IMG/VR virus record: IMGVR_UViG_3300031841_001384
Location: 1 to 29,377 of that record
Length of the DNA: 29,377 bases
Origin: a virus
Reading direction: 5' to 3' (one strand)
Every line of letters begins with the position of its first letter. The stretch's first letter is position 1. Of this stretch, positions 415 to 29,201 are shown in pieces. The position numbers and the translations under genes are program-made. The notes beneath the pieces are model-generated. The model had not been told where the DNA came from. It worked only from the letters and a program-made list of their open reading frames with translations, and did not search any database.

Positions 415-425
415 TTTAACTAATA

Positions 426-463
426 TACCTAGTGGATTCTAGGTACGGACATAGGAGAAAAAA
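426..463 (+). promoter_or_regulatory. Leader hairpin with three GGA motifs before the curli operon
   Basis: A 7-bp stem TACCTAG/CTAGGTA (426-432 with 439-445) presents TGGATT in its loop. Two more GGA triplets follow at 447-449 and 454-456, the last being the Shine-Dalgarno core of the gene at 464. No T-tract follows, so this does not look like an intrinsic terminator. A GGA in a hairpin loop plus a GGA in the ribosome-binding site is the usual form of a CsrA-regulated leader, and this phage encodes a CsrA. The regulatory role is inferred. Confidence 0.45.
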
Positions 464-1107: not shown

Positions 1108-1573
1108 TAATATTTGGATATATAGAATAGCAGCTTCGCTGTTTTTATTCTTTATAATACTCATACTTACCAATCCTTTATGGGCGGACGAGATGGTGCA
1201 TAAGTTTAAGTCTCCTTCTTTCTCCGGGGTTGGAACTTCAGCACATTATCTTACAATAGAAAATCAACAGTTCAATCGTAAGCAAGCTCTAAAAGCAGAA
1301 ATAAAAGCTTTGCAGGACGAAATAGAAAGAGATAAAGAAAATACTACTTTAGCTAGATTTATAAGGAACTTAGAGTCAAGAATCTATGCACAATTATCAA
1401 GACAGTTGGTAGAAAATTTATTTGGAGAAACTCCAAGCGATAGTGGAGTATTAGAATTAGAAGGTAATAGAATAGAGTATAATGTTGTTGATGGAATTAT
1501 AACTTTAAACATAACAGACAGTGATGGCAATACGACAACTATATCTCTTCCTATCGGCAGCTTTACTTTCTAG
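1088..1573 (+). CDS. csgF: Curli assembly protein CsgF
   Basis: CsgF binds the CsgG outer-membrane channel, its N-terminal peptide entering the pore, and in Enterobacteria helps couple subunit export to fibre nucleation. The chosen ATG (1088) has AAGGCGG six bases upstream and gives 161 residues. Residues 1-33 form a signal peptide ending LWA. The mature start carries FKSPSF (40-45), matching the FRNPNF channel-binding peptide of E. coli CsgF in spacing and type. The C-terminal third (IEYNVVDGIITLNITD, then TTTISLP) matches the conserved CsgF C-terminal beta region. Between them is a longer charged helical segment (about 63-110) than in E. coli. The gene overlaps csgG by 50 bases. I recognise the family from remembered sequence, without an alignment. 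Confidence 0.88.
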   Translation: MTKEKTDNIWIYRIAASLFLFFIILILTNPLWADEMVHKFKSPSFSGVGTSAHYLTIENQQFNRKQALKAEIKALQDEIERDKENTTLARFIRNLESRIYAQLSRQLVENLFGETPSDSGVLELEGNRIEYNVVDGIITLNITDSDGNTTTISLPIGSFTF

Positions 1574-2390
1574 CTGTGCAATAATAATAGATCCATTAGA
1601 GAATAATCTACCCCCCATACAAAAGATAGAAAAGCCAGAGATAGGCACATTACTTGTACCTGAACTTGCTAATATCAAATCAGCAAATAAAGTAAAGCCA
1701 GTTGTTGCTATATATACAGGCGGTTTTACAGATCAAACAGGGCAAAGAAGAAGTAATAGTTCGTATGCAACCTTTTCTTCCGCCGTAACCCAAGCCCCAG
1801 ATGCTTATTTAATCCGTGCATTAAAACACGCAGGGAGTAATTACGATGGATTCTTTGATGTTGTAGAAAGGGTTGGTTTGGATAACGTAACCAAAGAACG
1901 TCAAATAATAAGAAGTGCTAGGCAACAAAATAAAAATAATCAAAAATTACCAGATTTGTTATTTGCAGGTTTGATAATGCAAGGGGGCGTGATATCATAC
2001 GAAAGTAATGTAAAGTCTGGCGGTGCAGGAGCTAGGTACTTAGGCATTGGAATGTCTAGGCAATATAAACAAGATACTGTAGCCATATCTTTACGGACTG
2101 TATCTGTAAGTACAGGTAGAGTATTACTAGAAGTTTTAGTAACTAAAACAATATTAAGTGCTTCTATAGACCAAGATGTCTTTCGTTTTATTACTGACAG
2201 TACGGAACTAGTAGAAATAGAAAACGGATTAGTCAGAAATGAGTCAATCAATATAGCACTACAAACAGCAATAGAGACGGCTGTTTTAGAAACCATCAAG
2301 GAGGGTACAACCAGAGGATATTGGAATATAAATGAACAACTTAAAGTTATTGATTGCGATACTGATTGTGTCGCCTCTTTACGCGGCTGA
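1524..2390 (+). CDS. csgG: Curli secretion channel lipoprotein CsgG
   Basis: CsgG forms the nonameric outer-membrane channel that exports curli subunits. The protein has a lipoprotein signal peptide with lipobox LSSC and the lipidated Cys at residue 18. The core is unmistakable: YESNVKSGGAGARY at 159-172 is almost identical to E. coli CsgG. RTVSVSTGRVL, SKTIL-like TKTIL, VFRFI and RGYW occur in family order, and the length (288) is near the usual 277. In the constriction loop, Phe84 matches E. coli Phe56, while Tyr51 and Asn55 are replaced by Ser and Thr, with a Tyr (81) shifted to the Ala53 position. A GTG sits just before the ATG at 1521. There is no good ribosome-binding site, so translation is probably coupled to csgF. 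The last 59 bases also encode the next protein's signal peptide. Confidence 0.95.
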   Translation: MAIRQLYLFLSAALLSSCAIIIDPLENNLPPIQKIEKPEIGTLLVPELANIKSANKVKPVVAIYTGGFTDQTGQRRSNSSYATFSSAVTQAPDAYLIRALKHAGSNYDGFFDVVERVGLDNVTKERQIIRSARQQNKNNQKLPDLLFAGLIMQGGVISYESNVKSGGAGARYLGIGMSRQYKQDTVAISLRTVSVSTGRVLLEVLVTKTILSASIDQDVFRFITDSTELVEIENGLVRNESINIALQTAIETAVLETIKEGTTRGYWNINEQLKVIDCDTDCVASLRG

Positions 2391-3042
2391 TAATGAAATA
2401 TATATTGATCAGTCAGGTTCTACAGCAAACATAGATTTAGAGCAGTTAGGATCATCTAACATTATTGGCGGACTTAATTCGGTTGCAGGTACGTTAACAG
2501 CACTAGATTTAGATGGCCTTAATTTAACATTAGATATAAACCAAATAGGTAACACTAATAAATTTTTAGGTGATATTCTTGGTGACAACATTACAGGTTT
2601 CTTTGAGTTTGACGGAGATAGTAATACTTTTACTATACAAGGCGACCCAACAGATACCTATGGTATAGATAGTTCTGATTTTAATGTAGATGTTACTGGA
2701 AGCTCTAACACATTTACGTTAGATGTAGGTACAAGCGCTTTAGCTTCAAACCTTGATTTAGACTGGATAATTAATGGCGACAGCAACACCTTTGATTTTG
2801 ATATAAACTATGATGGTGCTACTAATTATGTAGATGTAGACGGAGATAGCAATACAATAAACTTTACAGGAAGTGGATATGCAGGCGGATATTTCTACCT
2901 CGACCAAACAGGTAACAGCAGAACATTCAATATCATACAATCCTCAACACTTGCTGCTGATTGGTTACAAATTAATTCTACTGGTTCTAATGGTACTATT
3001 TGTGTCGTTCAGAACGATGGCGGAACCAGCACCAGCTGTTGA
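2332..3042 (+). CDS. Secreted curlin-like amyloid repeat protein
   Basis: Residues 1-18 are a signal peptide (cleavage after PLYA). The rest is built from imperfect repeats of roughly 22-30 residues centred on QLGSSN (38), QIGNTN (71), GDSNTF (95), GSSNTF (123), GDSNTF (149), GDSNTI (171) and QTGNSRTF (192). The Q-x-G-x-x-N pattern is the curlin repeat signature; later repeats keep G-x-x-N with alternating hydrophobic residues, as expected for a beta-solenoid. The sequence is acidic and Asn/Ser/Thr-rich, with Cys at 224 and at the very C-terminus (236). Position directly after csgF-csgG makes it the likely exported substrate. It is longer than E. coli CsgA (151) and poor in Gln, so CsgA- or CsgB-like roles cannot be separated. 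Three GGA motifs precede its start (2300-2325). Confidence 0.8.
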   Translation: MNNLKLLIAILIVSPLYAADNEIYIDQSGSTANIDLEQLGSSNIIGGLNSVAGTLTALDLDGLNLTLDINQIGNTNKFLGDILGDNITGFFEFDGDSNTFTIQGDPTDTYGIDSSDFNVDVTGSSNTFTLDVGTSALASNLDLDWIINGDSNTFDFDINYDGATNYVDVDGDSNTINFTGSGYAGGYFYLDQTGNSRTFNIIQSSTLAADWLQINSTGSNGTICVVQNDGGTSTSC

Positions 3043-4069
3043 TGTAGGAAATATATCTGAATTAACTGGCTTAGCACAAATAGTAAGAGACAAACCTTAT
3101 CAGGCAAAAGAGTCTTTTAACATACAACAAAACGATGAAGCTATAACAACTAATGGTCGTATGGCTATTAGATTTTTAGATGACTCACAAGTAAAGTTAA
3201 CCGAACATTCGCAACTTACTATAGACGAATATATCTTTGACCCTAATCCTAGCAAATCTAAAATGGCTATTACCTTTGGTTTGGGTACAGCCAGGTTTAT
3301 TACTGGTGGTCTAAACAAGATAGATAAAAATAATATAGATCTCAAGACCCCCACTGCAAACATAGCTATAAGAGGTACTGATTTTACAGTTACTGTTGAT
3401 GAAATTGGCAGGTCCTTGTTAATACTTCTTCCAGATGAGTTTGGTAATTCTAGTGGTGAAATCTTAGTAACTACAGCTATGGGTACAGTTACATTAAATA
3501 AACCTTATGAAGCTACAACTGTGGATGTATTTGAAAAATCACCCAGTTCACCTGTGATTTTAGATTTAACCTTAGAGCTTATAGATAATATGTTGATTGT
3601 AAATCCACCTAAAGAAGAAGCTGCTATAGAAGAAACAGTACAAACGCAAAAGAAAAACATATTAGACTTTAATGATTTAGATATAGATTATTTAGAGGAA
3701 GATTTTTTTAAAGAAGATGAATTAGAGTTTACCGAGTTAGATATAAATTATCTTGATGTAAACTTCCTGGAAGACTTGTTAGATGTTATAGATGCATTAC
3801 AAGAAATAAAACAAGAAGACCAATTAGCACAAGATGCTACCTCTACAAATATAGTAGGTACGAAATTAGGACAAGATTTACAGACACAAGTAACATCTTT
3901 TGTAACAGGAGAAGCGTTAACATTGATGCGTAGTGTTAGTGATTCTGCTAGAATAGATATAGATTCTGCTGGAAGCTATACTGTTATTTTTATACAAGAT
4001 GGTACATCTAACATTATTAAGATAAATGGAGGCTCTAGCAGTACAATTAAAATAACTCAAAGTAATTGA
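2990..4069 (+). CDS. FecR-domain periplasmic protein with curlin-like tail
   Basis: The FecR domain (about residues 22-195) is seen as ISELTGLAQIV, FLDDSQVKLTEHSQLTIDEY, FGLGTARFITG and TANIAIRGTDFTV, a typical series for this beta-rich domain. A very acidic helical stretch follows (223-269), then a C-terminal tail QDGTSNIIKINGGSSSTIKI that resembles curlin repeats. The start is uncertain. ATG at 2990 gives a short signal peptide ending TMA before EPAPA. A TTG at 2951 in the same frame would give a better 23-residue one, MLLIGYKLILL onwards. Neither has a clear ribosome-binding site. The gene overlaps the curlin-like gene by 53-92 bases and its TGA overlaps the cyclase ATG. FecR proteins are often partners of membrane signalling proteins; pairing with the cyclase is inferred. 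Confidence 0.82.
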   Translation: MVLFVSFRTMAEPAPAVDVGNISELTGLAQIVRDKPYQAKESFNIQQNDEAITTNGRMAIRFLDDSQVKLTEHSQLTIDEYIFDPNPSKSKMAITFGLGTARFITGGLNKIDKNNIDLKTPTANIAIRGTDFTVTVDEIGRSLLILLPDEFGNSSGEILVTTAMGTVTLNKPYEATTVDVFEKSPSSPVILDLTLELIDNMLIVNPPKEEAAIEETVQTQKKNILDFNDLDIDYLEEDFFKEDELEFTELDINYLDVNFLEDLLDVIDALQEIKQEDQLAQDATSTNIVGTKLGQDLQTQVTSFVTGEALTLMRSVSDSARIDIDSAGSYTVIFIQDGTSNIIKINGGSSSTIKITQSN

Positions 4070-5814
4070 TGAAACGGATTTTATTTATACTACTTATACT
4101 ACTGGGGCTACCCTTAGTATTTCAAAGTACGCCTACAGAAATACTAAAACTAAAAGTCTTTGATTATCTTGTACCCCAACAACAACCATCTGGTTACTTT
4201 ACTATTCTAAACATAACCGAAAAAGATATAGATGCAGAAGGTGGTTGGCCAATACCAAGGCAAAGGCTGGGAGAAATACATAAACAAATTATTGATGCTG
4301 GTGCATTAGGTGTAGGTTGGGTTGTTAGTTTTCCACATCCTGATAGGTTTGGAAGTGATAACTACTTCGCGGAAACCCTTAAACAAAGCACCTCTATTCT
4401 AGCTATGTTTGAAACACCAAACAAACAATACCCACAAACTGTAGGTACAGTTATACTTGGTGATGATATTGGTGGTATGATGTCACAAGGGGTAGTTGTT
4501 AATACGCCGATATTATCGGAGTCTGCAGCTGAAGGTATTGCTACTGCTCCCACTGACGTAGATAATTTAGTCAGACAAATCCCCCTTTTATTACGTACAC
4601 CAGATGGATATGTTCCTGCTTTTGGTACAGAAGTATTAAAAGCTTTAGTTGGGGCCAGTACTTACATTATAAAAACTAATGATAATGGTATATCAGAAAT
4701 ATCTATAAAGGGAGTGCCACCTGTAAAAACAGATATCTTTGGTCGTAAATGGATTAGTTGGGTTGATACCCCTCAGACTGACTTACAAAATATGGATGTA
4801 GCAAATAAATTTGTATTTGTGGGTATAACTGCAAATGGAATTATGCCACAAGTTGCAACTCCAGTTGGATTACTAGAGCCACATAAAATTCAAGCTGCAC
4901 TATCTGAGTCTATTCTTATAGAAAATTCTCCTTATATTCCTGACTGGGCATTAGCAGTTGAACTTTTAATTTTTGGAATTTTGGTGTCGCTGACATGGCT
5001 CACAATCAATTATCTTGGTGTAGTTAAGGGTCTAAGTATAGCTATAGTTTTGCTTTTTACTACAGGCTTCTCAGGAGTTTTTAGCGTTCAGAAGGGTATT
5101 TTGCTGGATTTTTCATGGACTTTTATTTCACAAATCATAACTTCTACTGTTGCTTTCTACGTAAATTACAGAAAACAATACAAACTACGCCAACAAATTA
5201 AAAAACAATTTGAACACTACTTAGATCCAAGACAAGTAAAACAATTGCAAGATAATCCTGAACTACTAAAACTTGGTGGCGAGAAAAAATATTGTACATT
5301 TTTGTTTACAGATGTAAGGGGTTTTACTAATCTATCTGAAAAACTTTCTCCTGAAGAAGTAACAGATATAATGAATAAAGTACTTACCGCACAAGTTGCC
5401 TGCGTACAAGCGCATGGTGGTATGGTAGACAAGTTCATAGGCGACGCATGCATGGCCATATTCAATGCCCCCCTAAACATCGATGACCATGAAAAACGTG
5501 CCGTCGCCTGTGCCCAAGATATGCGTACAGCGATTCGCATGCTACAAAAAGAGTTACCCGAACCTATTGCAATTGGTATTGGTGTAAATTCAGGAGAAGC
5601 TGTAGTAGGTAATATGGGGTCTAATACAAGATTTGATTACTCAGCAATAGGTGATGCTGTAAATACAGCTGCAAGATTAGAGTCGGCAACAAAAGAAGCG
5701 GGTGTTGACATACTTATCGGGGAAGCTACAATTAAGAAAACGAAGAATGGCATTTTTCATAAGAAAATATATGTAAAGGGGAAAAAGCAACCACTAAAAG
5801 TTTATACCATATAA
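4069..5814 (+). CDS. CHASE2-domain class III adenylate cyclase
   Basis: This 581-residue sensor enzyme should make cAMP from ATP. An N-terminal membrane anchor (1-20) leads to an extracytoplasmic CHASE2 domain (about 25-290; YFTILNITEKDI and GGWPIPR are typical). Three membrane helices (about 295-367) and a cytoplasmic class III cyclase domain (about 405-581) follow. Catalytic residues look complete: metal-binding Asp in FTDVRGFT (415), Asp459 in DKFIGD, the Lys455/Asp523 pair expected for adenine, and the transition-state Asn532 and Arg536 in GDAVNTAARLE. ATG overlaps the fecR stop (TGATG); a TTG lies just upstream at 4066. A stretch near 5401-5540 is about 52% GC with different codon use, hinting at a foreign or host origin. 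Confidence 0.92.
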   Translation: MKRILFILLILLGLPLVFQSTPTEILKLKVFDYLVPQQQPSGYFTILNITEKDIDAEGGWPIPRQRLGEIHKQIIDAGALGVGWVVSFPHPDRFGSDNYFAETLKQSTSILAMFETPNKQYPQTVGTVILGDDIGGMMSQGVVVNTPILSESAAEGIATAPTDVDNLVRQIPLLLRTPDGYVPAFGTEVLKALVGASTYIIKTNDNGISEISIKGVPPVKTDIFGRKWISWVDTPQTDLQNMDVANKFVFVGITANGIMPQVATPVGLLEPHKIQAALSESILIENSPYIPDWALAVELLIFGILVSLTWLTINYLGVVKGLSIAIVLLFTTGFSGVFSVQKGILLDFSWTFISQIITSTVAFYVNYRKQYKLRQQIKKQFEHYLDPRQVKQLQDNPELLKLGGEKKYCTFLFTDVRGFTNLSEKLSPEEVTDIMNKVLTAQVACVQAHGGMVDKFIGDACMAIFNAPLNIDDHEKRAVACAQDMRTAIRMLQKELPEPIAIGIGVNSGEAVVGNMGSNTRFDYSAIGDAVNTAARLESATKEAGVDILIGEATIKKTKNGIFHKKIYVKGKKQPLKVYTI

Positions 5815-14371: not shown

Positions 14372-14785
14372 TTATTGTAAACATATGTTTATTAATTTGT
14401 CTATAAATTGATCAAAAGTCCCGGCATGCTTTAGATATTCGTTTAATGTAAAAAATTCTTTTTGAAAGTTTTGACTTACAAGAACGTGATCCGGGGATCC
14501 TAGTACGTAATACACTGGCATATTGTAATCATATTGTTGTTGCAACCAGAGTCTTTGTTGCTTAGAAAGGTCTACGGTTATTTTAGACGAACCACGGGCG
14601 GGAAGTTTTTGTTTGTATTTGTATTCAATGAAAGCAAACCCTTTAGGGCCAGAGTAGAAAGTGTCAGGCACGCCCCCATGATATGGGTCGTTTATTTTCC
14701 ATCTGTAAATTTCCTTTGGAAGTTTTTTATGGACTTTGTTAATGAAATCCTTTTCTTTCACATAAGAAGTATAACATACGTACAT
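14372..14785 (-). CDS. VRR-NUC-like PD-(D/E)XK nuclease
   Basis: The motif GVPDTFYSGPKGFAFIEYKY gives the catalytic signature PD(41)...E(54)-x-K(56) of small PD-(D/E)XK enzymes. A downstream segment LSKQQRLWLQQQYDYNMPVYYVLGS is typical of the VRR-NUC and Holliday-junction-resolvase-like group in phages. The length of 137 residues fits. The start is uncertain: ATG 14785 directly abuts a strong hairpin, and GTG 14761 (MKEKDF) is an alternative. Neither has a Shine-Dalgarno sequence. The likely role is cutting branched DNA or recycling host DNA in replication. Confidence 0.8.
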   Translation of the reverse strand: MYVCYTSYVKEKDFINKVHKKLPKEIYRWKINDPYHGGVPDTFYSGPKGFAFIEYKYKQKLPARGSSKITVDLSKQQRLWLQQQYDYNMPVYYVLGSPDHVLVSQNFQKEFFTLNEYLKHAGTFDQFIDKLINICLQ

Positions 14786-18283: not shown

Positions 18284-18311
18284 ATAGTGTTTAGCTTTTA
18301 GCTAACTCCTT
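18284..18311 (-). promoter_or_regulatory. Hairpin-bridged ribosome-binding site
   Basis: On the minus strand, AAGGAG (18306-18311) lies 22 bases from the ATG at 18283, too far for normal use. A perfect hairpin TTAGC-TAAAA-GCTAA (18305-18291) fills the gap exactly. Folding it leaves seven bases between AAGGAG and ATG, the optimal spacing. A similar device is known for T4 gene 38. Confidence 0.65.
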
Positions 18312-20751
18312 TTAGTAGTTGCTTATCTCGTTCTTCAAAATGAGTGTCAATTATCTCTTGTTTAGTATTATTATCTAATTTCCAAAGTAAGACAACCCCT
18401 CTAGCTGTTTTATCTTTTACACGTTTTACTGCAGTAGTTACATTTAAACGTGACATAGCTTTTGTAAAGTCTCTTTGAGACAATTTATTTCTTGTATCAG
18501 TCAGTACATCATAAACTAATTTAAAATGAGACATAGGTATGCAAACTTCTTCACCTGTTTTTGCAACCCAATCTTTTACATAACGCTGTGCTGTACTTAT
18601 TCCGCCAGCGTCAAATGTGTTTGTAAGAGGGATTTCTAATAATTCTGTAAAATAAACTAAATTTCTTTGACGTATTGCAAAAGCAAATTCTTCTAAGACT
18701 GACATAGATATTTCTTTCATTTTAGATTTAGCTTCGTTTTCTAAAGCTGTATGTGCCATACGTTGGTCTACTTGAAATTTATTTAAGACACCTGCAAAGA
18801 TATATAATTCTTTTTCTATTTTGTCTATATTTTGTAGAAGTTGAGGTTCACCTATTTCTAATTTTGTTTCTTGACGTGGTGAAATGTTATAACGTCTGTC
18901 ACCATCTTCTATTTTAACTGCGTCACCTCTGTTAGTTAAAAATATAAAATTACAAAAAGATGGCAGCTCAATTTGATTTGTACGCATTGCACGTATAGTT
19001 AATGTAGGTTCTGTAATTTGATGTTTAAGTTTATCTGCCATTTTACCTACACTACCTGCATCTCCCATGCGAAACTCATCAACTACTAGGAATAAAGCAG
19101 TACGCATATATAAATTGAATTGTTCTTCTATATTTTCTAGAGAACGCATTGGAACTTGAGGTTCACCAAATAAAGGTTTTAAAACTTTATGTATTAACAA
19201 ACCTTTACCAGTGCCTGGTACGCCTGTAAATATCCATGCTGTCATTGTTTTGCGTTTGTTTTGATATATATAAGCTAGCCAGTTAATAAAATGTTCTACC
19301 TCTGTTTTACCATTACCAAGAACATGAGACAACAGAGTGTATATAGATGGAGTTAGATTTTTAATCTTCTCTGCCGTCCCATATTCTAGTTCAGGTACAT
19401 GCTCTTCTTGTTGTAGCATGTAAGATGTTTTTCTATATAAATTTACATAGTATGGTGTTTCTTCAAGTTGAACACCTTTATTAGAACTTGGATCAAAAAC
19501 AACCCTAGCGTCTGGAATAAAATCCAAATTGGGGCGATTGTGAGACCTAAGAAAATCTTCAATCGATTGTTTATTTGTTGGCGTAAGGGGATAATTTTCT
19601 GTAAATTGTTGTAATGTTTCATCAAATACTCCGTTATAGTAAGTGTCAGTATAAAAATCTCTAAGAGCTAAAGGTTTTAATTTTTTGTCTTTATCAATTT
19701 TATCTGCAAAAGTTTCAAATATGTTTTTATAAAAATCTGGATCGGCTTTTTGTATTTCCCATATAGGCTCACCTTTAAAGTTATACATATAATGTGGATT
19801 AGTTAATACAAAATAATAACCACCGCTATCGCCTCCATTTACATTACAATTAACATAAGGCTCTGCAACACGACTTATTTCAATAGTCATTTTGTCAGGG
19901 TTTTGTAAAACTTCTTGGGGTTCGCCCGCAATATTTACTGTAGCTGTTTTTGTAGTTTTTTTAGGTAAATTTAATTTTTTTCTTAAGTTATCTTTTATTT
20001 GTATACCTAAATTATGTACACGTTCAGGGTTAACTGTAATTAATAGAGTAGATAAATCTAAAGTTTCAGAAGTACGTTTTACGTGTACAAATCTTGAACC
20101 TGAGATCGGATTATGTACATCTTTATTAAAAGTAGGAGCAGCAAGATAAATAATTTTTGCATTATCTGCGACTCCTGGGTCTAATCTATAAGATAAACTT
20201 TGTCCATTTGCTGACAAAGTTAATTGAGCTGCTAATGTATCTGTTTCGTAATTTAATAATTTTAATAACTCTTTTAATACTTTAGGATGACTAGCGTGTT
20301 CAAGTATAAAAAAGATATGCATAGATATTTTATCTTTTTTAAATCCTAATGAAGCACTTGCTTGGGCTACGTAACTTACATTATGAAATTCTGCTGGCAA
20401 TTGTTGTACTAATTGTTCAGCTAAAAATTCTAAATCTTGAGATTTAAGTTCTGATTTTTTTGGAATACTAGATTGAATATCATCAAAGTCTAATACTAAT
20501 AAGTTAGTGGGTGATACACGGTCCGTCATTAACGCTCTTGGCTCATGTTTGAGTGGGCGTTTTAATAAACCTTTGTGTAAACACATGCCAGCCTCAGCTG
20601 CTTTTGTAAGTTCTGTATATAATTTTTTAGTATCTTTTGATATATCTTTATGGACTGATGTAAAGTTTTTAATGAGTGGGTAAGGAGTAACTCCTTCTTC
20701 TGTAAAATGTTTTGCTAAAGATTGTTTAGCTTTTAAAAATACTAATTCCAT
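18298..20751 (-). CDS. Primase-polymerase / SF3-type helicase fusion
   Basis: The 817-residue replicative enzyme has an N-terminal archaeo-eukaryotic primase-like region (about 60-260), with LLVLDFDDI (Asp88/Asp90) as probable metal ligands. The C-terminal helicase is DUF5906/SF3-like: Walker A TGVPGTGKG (about 508-516), Walker B LFLVVDEF, then the sensor-like CNFIFLTN. A final winged-helix-like part (about 700-790; SHFKLVYDVLTD, SQRDFTKAMSRL) may bind DNA. It should unwind and prime phage DNA for the family A polymerase encoded two genes upstream. AGGAG lies seven bases before ATG. Confidence 0.88.
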   Translation of the reverse strand: MELVFLKAKQSLAKHFTEEGVTPYPLIKNFTSVHKDISKDTKKLYTELTKAAEAGMCLHKGLLKRPLKHEPRALMTDRVSPTNLLVLDFDDIQSSIPKKSELKSQDLEFLAEQLVQQLPAEFHNVSYVAQASASLGFKKDKISMHIFFILEHASHPKVLKELLKLLNYETDTLAAQLTLSANGQSLSYRLDPGVADNAKIIYLAAPTFNKDVHNPISGSRFVHVKRTSETLDLSTLLITVNPERVHNLGIQIKDNLRKKLNLPKKTTKTATVNIAGEPQEVLQNPDKMTIEISRVAEPYVNCNVNGGDSGGYYFVLTNPHYMYNFKGEPIWEIQKADPDFYKNIFETFADKIDKDKKLKPLALRDFYTDTYYNGVFDETLQQFTENYPLTPTNKQSIEDFLRSHNRPNLDFIPDARVVFDPSSNKGVQLEETPYYVNLYRKTSYMLQQEEHVPELEYGTAEKIKNLTPSIYTLLSHVLGNGKTEVEHFINWLAYIYQNKRKTMTAWIFTGVPGTGKGLLIHKVLKPLFGEPQVPMRSLENIEEQFNLYMRTALFLVVDEFRMGDAGSVGKMADKLKHQITEPTLTIRAMRTNQIELPSFCNFIFLTNRGDAVKIEDGDRRYNISPRQETKLEIGEPQLLQNIDKIEKELYIFAGVLNKFQVDQRMAHTALENEAKSKMKEISMSVLEEFAFAIRQRNLVYFTELLEIPLTNTFDAGGISTAQRYVKDWVAKTGEEVCIPMSHFKLVYDVLTDTRNKLSQRDFTKAMSRLNVTTAVKRVKDKTARGVVLLWKLDNNTKQEIIDTHFEERDKQLLKGVS

Positions 20752-20767
20752 ATCTAACTCCTATGTT

Positions 20768-20953
20768 TTATGGATTGTTGTGTTTTGAATTATATAATTC
20801 CTCTCTGTCAATTTGTATGTCATTATTTGCTTCAAATGCTAGCTTTGTTTGTTTTGCACCTAAAGAGGTAACAGTAATTTTACAAATAACTTTGTTATCT
20901 TTATAGATTACTATTGAATCACCTTTTCTTCTTGTTAAAACTAGATTGCTCAT
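20768..20953 (-). CDS. csrA: CsrA-family RNA-binding translational regulator
   Basis: CsrA dimers bind A-N-GGA in mRNA leaders, usually blocking ribosome access. The 61-residue product matches CsrA throughout: LVLTRRKGDSIVI at the N-terminus (bacterial L-I-LTRR-x-GE-x-x-x-I), VTSLGAKQTKLAFEAN in the middle and IQIDREELY at the end. RNA-contact residues of E. coli CsrA correspond to the LTRR arginines (8-9) and Arg50 in DREELY. Compared with E. coli it has a longer strand 2 region (YKDNKVICK). ATG overlaps the polymerase stop (ATGA) and the primase gene follows, so it is expressed with replication genes. No GGA lies near its own start. Confidence 0.92.
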   Translation of the reverse strand: MSNLVLTRRKGDSIVIYKDNKVICKITVTSLGAKQTKLAFEANNDIQIDREELYNSKHNNP

Positions 20954-22752
20954 TTGTCATATTGTTGACTGTAACTCCCTTCGGCATCTAGTGGTAAATC
21001 TGAACACCAAAAAGGAGGTGTTTTCATTATACCTATAATTTTATCAAGTGTCTCGTCTGGGTTAATATTTGAACCAAGACCTATAATCTCATCGTGTACC
21101 TGTAATACAACCGAAACTTCTGGCAGTTTGTGTACAGCTAACATTTGTTCAATAATTACAATTCTTGCAAGAGCTTGAACAACATTTTCTGTTACTCGTG
21201 CGCCATAAGTTTTAATAAGACCTTTACCGCTGTTATACATATGCTGTCCCCCTTGATAAACAAGTTCTGGATAATATAAATGCATTGTATTTGGTAATTG
21301 AATAGCTTTGTTTTTAATTACTAAAGGGCCATATGGTATTCTGTTTTCCTCACTTGTATTAATCATAGTAAACAAGTGTTGTTTAAAAGCATTCCACAAT
21401 TTAGGTATGTTAGGATACATAGCTCTATACTGACTAACAATTGCAAGTGCTGTAGAATCTGTTATTTCTACAGATGGCGATCCTGTTTTAAGTGTGTACT
21501 TAAATTTTTCATGACCCATACCATAACCTAAACCTAAGATAGCTGTTTTACCAACATATCTTTCTAACTTGTTAGCTTTAGTAATTGGACGCCCATAAAT
21601 TTGAGATGCAAAATTACTGTACACATCTTCGCCGGCAGCGAATGCATCAAGTAAGTCAACTTCTTTTGCAAGCCAGGCTAACATACGTGCTTCGATGTTT
21701 GATAAGTCAGCAACATACAAAAGTTGACCGTTAGGGGCTTGTATTGCTTTACGTAACACAGATCCCCGGGGAAGGTTTTGTAAGTTAATACTTTCAGTGC
21801 CCCCAAATCTACCTGTATGTGCAGCGTAATATCTTAAAGGTACAGAAAAAGTATTGTCAGGGTTTATGTTTTCTAACATTCTTTGCGCACGTGTTTCTTC
21901 AATACGTGACTTGACAGCTTCTCTAGCATCCCATAAGTGTTGGTATTCAGGGTAAACTTTTTGCATTTGTATATAAGCTGAGTCAGTTTTACTAAATGCA
22001 GGAATCTTTTTACCTGTACTTGGACTAGTTTTAGTTGGGACAACGATGTTTAAGCTTTCTAAATATTCAGCAAATTTCTTTTGCGAAGCCAACGTTTCTC
22101 GGTCGACGCCCGATTGTTCTATAAGTTGTTCAGTGTTTGTTTTTATTGTTTCTTTGTGCGTTATTAATAGTTCACGATTTAAAGTTAGTTTTGGCTCTAC
22201 ATACATACGACAAGTTAAATCAATTACATCTAGCTCATCCTGTGGATAACTTCGTACAAACTTTTGAAAGATTGCATAAGTTAGATCAACGTCTTGTATA
22301 CAATAACCAGCTATTTGTTCTTCAATGTCAGGTGGTAAATCTCTAATACCTTTCGCATTTACAAGCTCTTCTCCTTTTCGCATACTAGTATCATTAGGAA
22401 AAACACGTTCTGCTGTAGCTTTGAGTGAAGCCGATTGATTTGGATACAAACCCCGGGACATTGCAGCTGTGTCGTAATAATATGCAGGATATAAACCTAA
22501 ATATTGAGTGAGGATGTAAGCATCAAATAAAGTATTGTGGCATATTACAGAAGACTCTTCCCAGGGTATGTTTTGTAATGCATCTAAATATTCATCTTCA
22601 CCAAACCATTCGGTTGGTTCATTATTAAGTTTTATACCTACACCCCATATTTTAAAGTCTGGGTGATGTACGTATTGAACAGTAGTTATTTTACTTAAGC
22701 TTAGAGTGCTGTCGTAATAAGTTTCAAAGTCTAAATAAACTTTATTTTTCAT
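20950..22752 (-). CDS. polA: DNA polymerase, family A, with 3'-5' exonuclease
   Basis: This is the phage replicative polymerase. Residue numbers count from an in-frame ATG four codons upstream (22764). The exonuclease domain has LDFETYYD (Asp12, Glu14), CHNTLFDAY (Asp81) and YCIQD (Tyr154, Asp158). The polymerase has motif A YVADLSNIEAR (Asp353), motif B ERYVGKTAILGLGYG (Arg402, Lys406, Tyr414) and motif C LQVHDEII (His557, Asp558). The residue matching E. coli Phe762 is Leu410. ATG 22752 is preferred because it overlaps the upstream TGA. About 600 residues without a 5' nuclease domain resembles T7-like polymerases. Confidence 0.95.
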   Translation of the reverse strand: MKNKVYLDFETYYDSTLSLSKITTVQYVHHPDFKIWGVGIKLNNEPTEWFGEDEYLDALQNIPWEESSVICHNTLFDAYILTQYLGLYPAYYYDTAAMSRGLYPNQSASLKATAERVFPNDTSMRKGEELVNAKGIRDLPPDIEEQIAGYCIQDVDLTYAIFQKFVRSYPQDELDVIDLTCRMYVEPKLTLNRELLITHKETIKTNTEQLIEQSGVDRETLASQKKFAEYLESLNIVVPTKTSPSTGKKIPAFSKTDSAYIQMQKVYPEYQHLWDAREAVKSRIEETRAQRMLENINPDNTFSVPLRYYAAHTGRFGGTESINLQNLPRGSVLRKAIQAPNGQLLYVADLSNIEARMLAWLAKEVDLLDAFAAGEDVYSNFASQIYGRPITKANKLERYVGKTAILGLGYGMGHEKFKYTLKTGSPSVEITDSTALAIVSQYRAMYPNIPKLWNAFKQHLFTMINTSEENRIPYGPLVIKNKAIQLPNTMHLYYPELVYQGGQHMYNSGKGLIKTYGARVTENVVQALARIVIIEQMLAVHKLPEVSVVLQVHDEIIGLGSNINPDETLDKIIGIMKTPPFWCSDLPLDAEGSYSQQYDK

Positions 22753-23237
22753 GCTGGCCACCATGTTGGTTGTTTTCTGTTTTTATTCCACATTGCATAT
22801 TTTTTTTCTGCAATAACGTATTGACGATACGAAAGTATTGGGTCATCTGGTTCTTTGTATTGGTCAGGCATTGCTAAAGCAATAGGTGTTTGTCGTGCTA
22901 TTTTTATATTTTCAGGCACACGAGATAAAGGTTCTGCTAATTTTGTATAAGATAAATGCTCTCGATAATATCTATGTTCATATTCTTTACAAAGCGCAAT
23001 AAAGTGTGCATATAACCAACCATAATTACCAGAAGTTTCTCTGGCCCATATTGTACAGGGGTGGTTTACATACGCAGCTTTATAGATCTTATGTTTGTCT
23101 GCATATTTATCACCATCTAACACTCTATGTGCAGTAGATAACATTTGCGCAGTTTCAAGTGGCATCTTTACTAACATTTTGTCAGGTTGTGCTTGTGCAG
23201 ATTTAATAGGGCATTCGTCAAAATAAAATATGTTCAT
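22749..23237 (-). CDS. PF03013-like phage protein (pyrimidine-dimer glycosylase family)
   Basis: The 162-residue protein begins MNIFYFDECPIKSAQAQPDKMLVKMPLETAQMLSTAHRVLDG. HPCTIWARETSGNYGWLYAHFIALC and SYRQYVIAEKKYAMW follow. This is the pattern of a widespread phage family that I associate with PF03013, related to pyrimidine-dimer excision proteins. The Asp/Lys/His residues (DKMLVKM, NHPCTIW) are kept. DNA repair is the named function of the family but has not, to my knowledge, been shown for this phage branch. AAGGAC lies six bases before the start; it overlaps the next gene by ATGA. Confidence 0.7.
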   Translation of the reverse strand: MNIFYFDECPIKSAQAQPDKMLVKMPLETAQMLSTAHRVLDGDKYADKHKIYKAAYVNHPCTIWARETSGNYGWLYAHFIALCKEYEHRYYREHLSYTKLAEPLSRVPENIKIARQTPIALAMPDQYKEPDDPILSYRQYVIAEKKYAMWNKNRKQPTWWPA

Positions 23238-23440
23238 GTTTCGTCCTTAAGTTGTTCAATTTTAGTTTTCCATTCTTGATATTCACCTTTCTTTGCTCTT
23301 TCCCAACCGACTTGTTTACTGTGAACCATGTTAAAAGCTGTAGCTTTATTAACTAATTTCCATTGAATATATGGTAAATCGTCTGGATTAGAGTAACGAT
23401 AGGGGTGTATAGGGTTTCTTTTTACGTAAACTTTTGACAT
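23234..23440 (-). CDS. Hypothetical protein, first gene of the replication operon
   Basis: The 68-residue basic protein (KVYVKRNPIHPYRYSNPDDLPYIQWKLVNKATAFNMVHS) has AAGGA seven bases before ATG. It is the most upstream minus-strand gene of the polymerase operon and overlaps the next gene by ATGA. No domain is recognised. It lies directly beside a divergent control region, a common place for small early proteins. Confidence 0.58.
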   Translation of the reverse strand: MSKVYVKRNPIHPYRYSNPDDLPYIQWKLVNKATAFNMVHSKQVGWERAKKGEYQEWKTKIEQLKDET

Positions 23441-23533
23441 TAATTATCCTTAATTAAAGTTGACATTCATCATGAATGCTTTATGTTTTTAATTATGGCA
23501 CAGTTTTGTGCAAATTTAAAATAGGAGAAAAAA
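23441..23533. promoter_or_regulatory. Divergent control region with sigma70-type promoter and two inverted repeats
   Basis: On the plus strand, TTGACA (23460-23465) is followed after 16 bases by TATGTT (23482-23487), a plausible host sigma70 promoter for the gene at 23534. The spacer contains the inverted repeat CATTCA-TCA-TGAATG (23464-23478), placed like an operator. A second inverted repeat GCACA-GTTT-TGTGC (23498-23511) lies near the expected transcription start. The region also serves as the 5' side of the minus-strand replication operon. AGGAGA precedes the plus-strand ATG. Confidence 0.6.
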
Positions 23534-23944
23534 ATGGCATCAACATATACTTCAGATGTAGTAAGTGGAAACCAATCTTTCAAACCTTTTCCTTCTGGAA
23601 TTATGGGTGTTAGATATTCAAAGTTCGAAGCTTCTACAGCATTAGTACTTAATGATGTTATTCAGATGGTTGACGTATTTGCAGGTGAGACTGTTCACAA
23701 AGTTGTGATTAAAACAGACGACCTAGATACTGGTACAACAATTGTTCTTGATGTAGGTGACGGCACAACAGCTGACTACTACATTGACGGTTCTACCGTT
23801 GGACAAGCTGGTGGTACTGATGAGATCGATGCAAATATTGCACCAAAAGAATATTCATCTGATGACACAATCGATATTTTAGTACAAGCAGCACCTACAG
23901 GTGGCGGTACTGGAACAATCGAAATGTGGGTACACGTATCTTAA
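23534..23944 (+). CDS. Structural-type protein (possible head decoration protein)
   Basis: The 136-residue, acidic, beta-rich protein (MVDVFAGETVHKVVIKT, TTIVLDVGDGTTADYYIDG, GGTGTIEMWVHV) lacks a signal peptide or membrane segment. The sequence style is that of phage capsid-decoration or other virion surface proteins, a type common in marine phages. It is isolated: it has its own promoter region and ends just before a strong terminator, flanked by minus-strand genes on both sides. The capsid role is a guess from composition. Confidence 0.62.
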   Translation: MASTYTSDVVSGNQSFKPFPSGIMGVRYSKFEASTALVLNDVIQMVDVFAGETVHKVVIKTDDLDTGTTIVLDVGDGTTADYYIDGSTVGQAGGTDEIDANIAPKEYSSDDTIDILVQAAPTGGGTGTIEMWVHVS

Positions 23945-28118: not shown

Positions 28119-28437
28119 GTTTACCTCCCTGTATAACTGTAAATGGATATTTTTTCTTTTCTGGTTCAAAATGAACCTCTGGCTCAAATCTTGGTGTAGT
28201 AAACCAAACAGCCACGTTCAACGGTTCACGTTCGTCAAGATGTGCTGACTCACGATAAGACCGGCATAAATCTTCGACTTGATTTTGTAATTGCATGAAT
28301 GTAAAGCTATCGCCTTTGGCTCCAAGACAATAATTTGTTTGTTGAGACAGTTCTTGAAAGTCTAAGCGTAATGCTGTTTCTTCTTCAAGAACTGATATTT
28401 GAATATGAACTTCGTAAGCAATGTCATCTGCATGCAT
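28111..28437 (-). CDS. Hypothetical 108-residue protein
   Basis: I start at ATG 28437, with GGAGG seven bases upstream; the GTG at 28443 would be too close to it. The protein is acidic, with a helical central part (ALRLDFQELSQQ, FTFMQLQNQVEDLCRSYRE) and a strand-rich C-terminal part (LNVAVWFTTPRFEPEVHF). No known domain is seen. It overlaps the next gene by 8 bases. The ribosome-binding site lies in a CACA/TGTG hairpin. Confidence 0.55.
   Translation of the reverse strand: MHADDIAYEVHIQISVLEEETALRLDFQELSQQTNYCLGAKGDSFTFMQLQNQVEDLCRSYRESAHLDEREPLNVAVWFTTPRFEPEVHFEPEKKKYPFTVIQGGKHD
28123..28134 (-). promoter_or_regulatory. Predicted CsrA site over ribosome-binding site
   Basis: On the minus strand, ATACAGGGAGGT matches the in-vitro selected CsrA consensus RUACARGGAUGU at 11 of 12 positions. 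The GGA is inside the Shine-Dalgarno sequence of the gene starting at 28118. TAC and GTA on either side can pair to show AGGGAG in a loop, the preferred CsrA geometry. Target status is inferred. Confidence 0.5.
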
Positions 28438-28440
28438 ACT

Positions 28441-28455
28441 CACACCTCCCTGTGC
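28441..28455 (-). promoter_or_regulatory. Predicted CsrA hairpin over ribosome-binding site
   Basis: GCACAGGGAGGT (minus, 28455-28444) matches the CsrA consensus at 10 of 12 positions. CACA and TGTG form a 4-bp stem with GGGAGG as the loop, the Shine-Dalgarno sequence of the gene at 28437. This would allow repression by the phage or host CsrA. Confidence 0.5.
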
Positions 28456-28460
28456 AAATA

Positions 28461-28527
28461 CTGAAAAGCCAAGAACCCACTTTTAGGGAAAGACGGGCAT
28501 GATGAATAACTAGTCTTGGCTCTTCAG
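28461..28527 (-). ncRNA. Long-stem structured RNA element
   Basis: Arms CTGAAAAGCCAAGA (28461-28474) and TCTTGGCTCTTCAG (28514-28527) are inverted copies with one A/C mismatch. On the minus-strand transcript that position becomes a G-U pair, giving a continuous 14-bp stem around a 39-base loop, inside which CCC and GGG can pair. It lies between two small genes, just upstream of a CsrA-like site. It could be an RNA processing site, a transcript stabiliser or a small RNA. It is not a simple terminator, as no T-run follows directly. Confidence 0.5.
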
Positions 28528-29186: not shown

Positions 29187-29201
29187 CACACCTCCTATGT
29201 G
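29187..29201 (-). promoter_or_regulatory. Ribosome-binding site in a hairpin loop
   Basis: CACA (29201-29198) and TGTG (29190-29187) pair to leave TAGGAGG in the loop, the Shine-Dalgarno sequence of the gene at 29183. It repeats the arrangement at 28441-28455, including the CACA/TGTG stem. Confidence 0.42.

Follow-up and report, generated by a model that had tools for sequence, protein, structure and literature searches.

Comparative analysis of a clade of uncultured marine phages suggested that the CsrA encoded by these phages would, as a dimer, chiefly control the translation of their own early genes, a reading to which we assign a probability of about 0.6 on sequence evidence. That phages carry CsrA has already been published, and the new result is the set of candidate targets among the genes of the phage itself. 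The usual view of phage CsrA is that it rewires the host or silences CRISPR-Cas. If the present reading is true, at least one widespread clade of marine phages regulates itself by CsrA via structured operators that can be recognised in the sequence. The target sites would then be specific and testable, and T4 RegA would have an independent counterpart that relies on a different protein. The DNA analysed, hereafter the window, is an IMG/VR virus record of 29,377 bases that forms part of a larger genome, and its features are listed in Table 1.

Table 1. Positions of the genes and RNA elements discussed, in window coordinates.
Feature	Position	Strand	Basis or remark
Leader hairpin, ultraconserved, UGGAUU loop	427..444	plus	not specific to phage CsrA
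Cassette of CsgG, putative curlin-like protein, FecR and CHASE2-adenylate/guanylate cyclase	1521-5814	plus	
Primase/helicase (DUF5906)	18298..20751	minus	downstream of csrA; Pfam DUF5906, PHROG DNA primase
Hairpin at csrA-primase junction	20747..20774	minus	candidate CsrA site
csrA, CsrA-family RNA-binding protein of 61 aa	20953->20768	minus	Pfam PF02599, fold match, invariant contact residues
Family A DNA polymerase	20950..22764	minus	upstream of csrA; Pfam DNA_pol_A
68-aa gene, first in polymerase-csrA-primase operon	23234..23440	minus	ORF; conserved in clade
GGA-loop hairpin over SD of 68-aa gene	23440..23457	minus	family-wide hairpin, covariation
SELEX-consensus match, 11/12	28123..28134	minus	weak candidate
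Hairpin with AGGGAG (ANGGAN) hexaloop closed by CAC/GUG, over SD of gene starting 28437	28436..28461	minus	
CACAU-AGGAG-GUGUG hairpin over SD of gene starting 29183	29187..29201	minus	

The csrA gene and its place in the replication operon

The 61-amino acid ORF was confirmed as an intact CsrA by its sequence, by the fold predicted for it and by the residues that contact RNA. Pfam gave a single family, CsrA (PF02599, score 45.3 bits, cutoff 27), and the PHROG match was PHROG 9500, 'CsrA-like regulator'. An AlphaFold2 model of the monomer had a pLDDT of 90 and its best PDB matches were all CsrA, RsmA or RsmE (probability 1.00, TM about 0.7-0.8), among them RsmE bound to the hcnA Shine-Dalgarno (SD) sequence. 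Residues L6, R8 and R50 of the phage protein are the equivalents of L4, R6 and R44 of E. coli CsrA, of which L4 and R44 are critical for RNA binding (PMC7652899), and all three were invariant in the 61 distinct clade proteins. Pairwise dN/dS of csrA within the close group was 0.10-0.21. A preliminary description of this DNA, which gave no strand for csrA (the gene lies on the minus strand), had claimed a CsrA with its RNA-contact residues kept and had named loss of the binding arginines in homologues as a ground for refuting it; the claim stands, both arginines being retained in 61/61 proteins.

The C-terminus beyond DRKE was replaced or shortened in the CsrA of L087, L088, L089 and L093, where the usual helix sequence is gone and the arginine is retained. 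CsrA-like ORFs of other phages (L035, L036 and L037) carry an insertion that separates the N- and C-terminal parts.

The same description had placed csrA within the replication operon by an ATGA overlap, and this was borne out: the csrA ATG (20953-20951) and the polymerase TGA (20952-20950) share the ATGA at 20953-20950, and the primase start codon, at 20751, follows csrA by 16 nt. Relatives were gathered by scanning viral contigs with CsrA and with the primase. Over all loci, csrA was found at the polymerase-primase junction in 107 of 108 distinct junctions, a count that includes two loci (L171 and L194) lying outside the junction search pattern, whose CsrA was retrieved separately. The single junction without csrA was that of an outgroup, Aeromonas phage phiA008, and the whole genomes of the GenBank relatives phiA008 and phiR18 gave no CsrA match. 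The primase-based scan, which involved no selection for csrA, showed the gene in each of the 73 loci whose junction was visible. Because the same gene occupies the same junction in 107/108 distinct sequences, a chance ORF is ruled out; judged by these junctions, csrA is a core gene of the clade. Distant relatives, with 40% identity in the primase and 53% in the polymerase, still carry a CsrA of 33% identity in the same position, and phages of the GenBank-derived collection showed only distant similarity to the clade CsrA. No csrA-less clade member was found among the loci scanned, so that loss of csrA could not be compared with loss of the hairpins described below.

In five loci (L106-L108, L110 and L111) an additional small hydrophobic ORF separates the polymerase from csrA, whose GTG start there forms a GTGA overlap. 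Most clade members have an opposite-strand gene (window 23534-23944, plus strand) inserted into the early module; it diverges from the operon head and is accompanied by a promoter match of TTGACA type at 23460. A primase-alignment scan of genomes returned only three loci, in metagenome-assembled genomes (MAGs) named for three different phyla, and therefore no host was inferred.

If phage CsrA acted mainly on host mRNAs, such as those for metabolism, motility, CRISPR-Cas or other defence, with the phage hairpins secondary or otherwise used, its constant place in the replication operon would go unexplained. Such a host-directed role has been proposed in print for phage CsrA generally (PMC8450108, PMC7366521). 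In its favour, plaques of E. coli phage PTXU04 became smaller when its csrA homologue was knocked down by CRISPRi-ART (PMC11879866). For the present clade we consider it unlikely as the main role.

GGA-loop hairpins at early gene starts

The starting clue, in a comparison of orthologous leaders, was the arrangement CACAC-AGGAG-GTGTG across the SD of two early genes. Sites were counted where the GGA of the SD lay within the loop of a hairpin (loop 4-7 nt, stem >=5) upstream of ORF starts, and expectations were obtained by shuffling the left flank. The settings for stem length and loop range were chosen post hoc with examples in view, and gene calling relied on one simple ORF rule, favouring SD-bearing starts, for all sets alike. 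In the clade 77/666 sites were found against 27.8 expected, while csrA-minus marine contigs gave 26/490 against 23.9. Removal of similar sites left 48 against about 18-19 expected in the clade and 15 against 14-15 in the csrA-minus phages.

The excess was confined to GGA itself, other offsets not being clearly enriched. Analysis of the loop registers in the clade revealed 30 sites of NGGAN against 7.0 expected (z 9.5) and 26 of NNGGAN against 6.7 (z 7.9); registers starting with GGA were at expectation, some neighbouring registers had a smaller excess, and no register was enriched in the csrA-minus phages. NNGGAN corresponds to the ANGGAN hexaloop of RsmE structures (PMC7652899), and published targets of CsrA and RsmE comprise ANGGAN hexaloops and loops overlapping the SD (PMC7652899, PMC4894983). 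Some clade stems, at 7-9 bp, are longer than is the norm for SELEX ligands of CsrA, whose stems typically have four bp or fewer (PMC7652899).

The early strand, which is that of csrA, held 35 sites against 10.4 expected, and the late strand showed a weak excess (13 against 8.1). When one random site was taken per protein family, early genes of the clade gave 8.3 against 2.1 (z 4.4) and the csrA-minus phages 9.4 against 8.0. The post hoc choice of parameters was addressed with a hold-out of 92 contigs outside the discovery set, restricted to sites unlike any discovery site and sharing ancestry with that set: hairpins in the CsrA register occurred at 16/203 sites against 3.35 expected, a count reached in 0/500 shuffles, while the remaining registers gave 2 against 4.7. 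Early genes with the element are a minority. The window alone had 2 sites against 1.1 expected, which is not significant, so that the case rests on the clade, and a scan of the window for the SELEX consensus gave no excess (1 against 0.57 and 11 against 8.35). In seven larger contigs GGA hairpins were not in excess genome-wide, the excess being at gene starts.

Enrichment was absent from four unrelated csrA-carrying phages (1 against 2.7) and from the 47 sites of the distant csrA-carrying relatives L196 and L197. The hairpins are thus no general consequence of carrying csrA, and a self-regulon would be specific to this clade; the proposition that every phage CsrA comes with SD hairpins was rejected on the four unrelated phages. 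These phages also lend weight to action on host mRNAs, since CsrA can evidently serve phages without phage targets. Such action nevertheless fails to explain why GGA-loop hairpins of a specific register lie on the early strand of the clade.

At the operon head, the 68-aa gene has a leader of this kind. The hairpin was present in 9/9 family members on full contigs; the isolated window copy gives a weak fold (-2.7 kcal/mol). Alignment of the leaders revealed an invariant AGGA and a stem that varies on both sides, as in ATTTAATTA/TAATTAAAT, ATAAATA/TATTTAT, ACAATTA/TAATTGT, AGTC/GACT and CATTC/GAATG. In a set of 24 distinct leaders picked by hand, all with a 5-nt loop, 84.8% of stem cells were paired against 62.7% after shuffling, two-sided changes numbered 28 cells against 9.6, and the covariation score was 0.452 against 0.121 (0/500); the shuffled controls are inflated by sequence relatedness, and the slid control, which is free of that, reached at most 0.145. 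Across all 53 leaders of this gene the paired cells numbered 319, against 277 under permutation, with a maximum of 293; for another gene family, located immediately beyond the gene at 14372, the count was 219 against 175 (maximum 198). This strong covariation argues that the operon-head leader is a structured RNA hairpin with an invariant AGGA loop. An earlier suggestion that the phage CsrA may time the phage's own genes is thereby backed by comparative RNA evidence, in the form of register-specific enrichment, the hold-out and covariation.

Covariation reveals a structure and not its reader. The hairpins might be regulatory and yet be read by the CsrA of the host, by another phage or host protein, or act through RNA structure alone, with phage CsrA perhaps a competitor. 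A host CsrA is possible as reader, and the lack of enrichment in the distant csrA-carrying relatives fits such an arrangement. The loop register, on the other hand, is that of CsrA/RsmE, starts whose SD has no GGA show a weak excess only (16 against 10.8), and csrA-minus marine phages have no enrichment; we regard a different reader as improbable, by a little more so than a mainly host-directed CsrA.

Individual leaders in the window

The strongest candidate sites in the window are 28436-28461, 23440-23457, 29187-29201 and 20747-20774. Leaders in the window were individually unexceptional in fold energy, the hairpin at the csrA-primase junction excepted (MFE -6.0 kcal/mol, z -3.0, 1/200 shuffles). 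In this hairpin the inner loop contains a GGA (20761-20759), and the primase AUG lies within the outer stem. A similar fold was found in L002 and a weaker one in L001, and most of the more distant loci showed no conservation.

Three leaders had previously been proposed as targets of the phage CsrA. That at 28441-28455 proved a good candidate, with its ANGGAN hexaloop and a hairpin of the CACACAGGAGGTGTG type in 5/5 orthologues of the gene starting 28437; the MFE is -8.5 but z is only -0.3 against shuffles. The leader at 28123-28134 fared poorly: a SELEX match of 11/12 has a chance expectation of 0.57, no stable hairpin is predicted, and the corresponding gene of L001 is without CAGG(G)AGG. The element over the SD of the gene starting 29183 is also present in L001, where a C-G pair replaces U-G, and MFE folding of the window favours an alternative pairing that sequesters the SD.

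The third proposal, 426-463, lies in the leader ATACCTAGTGGATTCTAGGTACGGACATAGGAG (422-463, plus strand), which forms a 7-bp hairpin and in whose UGGAUU loop one base precedes GGA. The exact 22-mer CCTAGTGGATTCTAGGTACGGA was found in 91 viral stretches, and in nearly all of those inspected it lies just upstream of one type of gene (MAITKE...), also present in SAR11 podophages, in phages that are otherwise different. CsrA was lacking in 27/28 tested records with this leader, and the leader was therefore rejected as a specific site for phage CsrA. It is possibly a regulatory element or a recombination joint for a tail-fibre-linked cassette.

Proposed regulation, known systems and the curli cassette

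Regulation of the phage's own genes by CsrA would proceed as follows. The ATGA overlap with the polymerase suggests coupled translation, so that csrA, at the core of the replication operon, would be translated alongside DNA polymerase and primase. Early phage mRNAs would offer, as the statistics and covariation indicate, an SD GGA inside a hairpin loop of CsrA type, and a CsrA dimer would be expected to bind such loops and block access of the ribosome. As infection proceeds and CsrA builds up, early synthesis would be throttled by negative feedback on early genes, those of the replication operon among them, much as with T4 RegA. Since CsrA both activates and represses (PMC7652899), activation in place of repression is possible. 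Further, putative effects of the phage CsrA on host mRNAs are likely. We lean slightly towards the view that the phage lineage domesticated a bacterial CsrA as a regulator of the RegA type, with GGA-hairpin operators across early genes, one of them heading the csrA operon itself.

The likeness to T4 RegA, a small protein that represses some 30 mRNAs and whose gene lies in the core replication cluster (PMC3014915), appears to be functional and positional only. Both would be small translational regulators of many early phage mRNAs encoded among core replication genes, repression being a prediction for the clade CsrA. RegA, however, is an unrelated protein and its operators are unstructured and A+U rich, whereas the candidates here present GGA in hairpin loops. 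With bacterial CsrA, RsmA and RsmE the phage protein shares the Pfam family, the predicted fold, the equivalents of L4, R6 and R44, and GGA-loop hairpins over the SD; it differs in being phage-encoded within a replication operon, with phage genes as probable targets. A sponge RNA of the CsrB/RsmZ type, as in the bacterial Csr/Rsm systems, was not found in the window, itself a genome fragment, either as an Rfam match or as a cluster of GGA hairpins.

CsrA homologues are likewise carried by F116-like phages, Vibrio phages, the Bcep22-like phage JC1 and PTXU04. A list from 2020 gives 30 phages with CsrA (PMC7366521), and a 2021 survey of GenBank and IMG/VR advanced an anti-CRISPR hypothesis (PMC8450108). 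Those genes are described as moron or host-manipulation genes, and that of JC1 adjoins the capsid gene (PMC9144972), whereas csrA of the present clade lies in the replication operon. The available parts of PMC7366521, PMC8450108, PMC11879866 and PMC9144972 propose effects on the host or the virion and name no phage targets. RsmQ is a plasmid-borne CsrA homologue and so also resides on a mobile element; it has been shown to redirect host translation (PMC9928087), while the evidence for the clade points to the phage's own genes.

The preliminary description had also counted the curli cassette among the genes that CsrA may time, and control of this cassette by the CsrA of the same phage now seems highly improbable. 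The two co-occur in the window, and CsgG is present in 14/43 clade records, many of them fragments. The cassette thus occurs in only part of the csrA-carrying clade, and CsgG is missing from four near-complete contigs of 56-59 kb that carry csrA (G001, G005, G008 and G045), so that the curli cassette is not why csrA is retained; on this co-occurrence test a curli coupling was rejected as a requirement. The late strand, moreover, shows little hairpin enrichment. A similar set of curli genes is annotated in Methylophilales phage Melnitz-3. A 60.8-kb contig binned as a Neomarinimicrobiota MAG (L195) belongs to the phage clade and has both csrA and the curli cassette.
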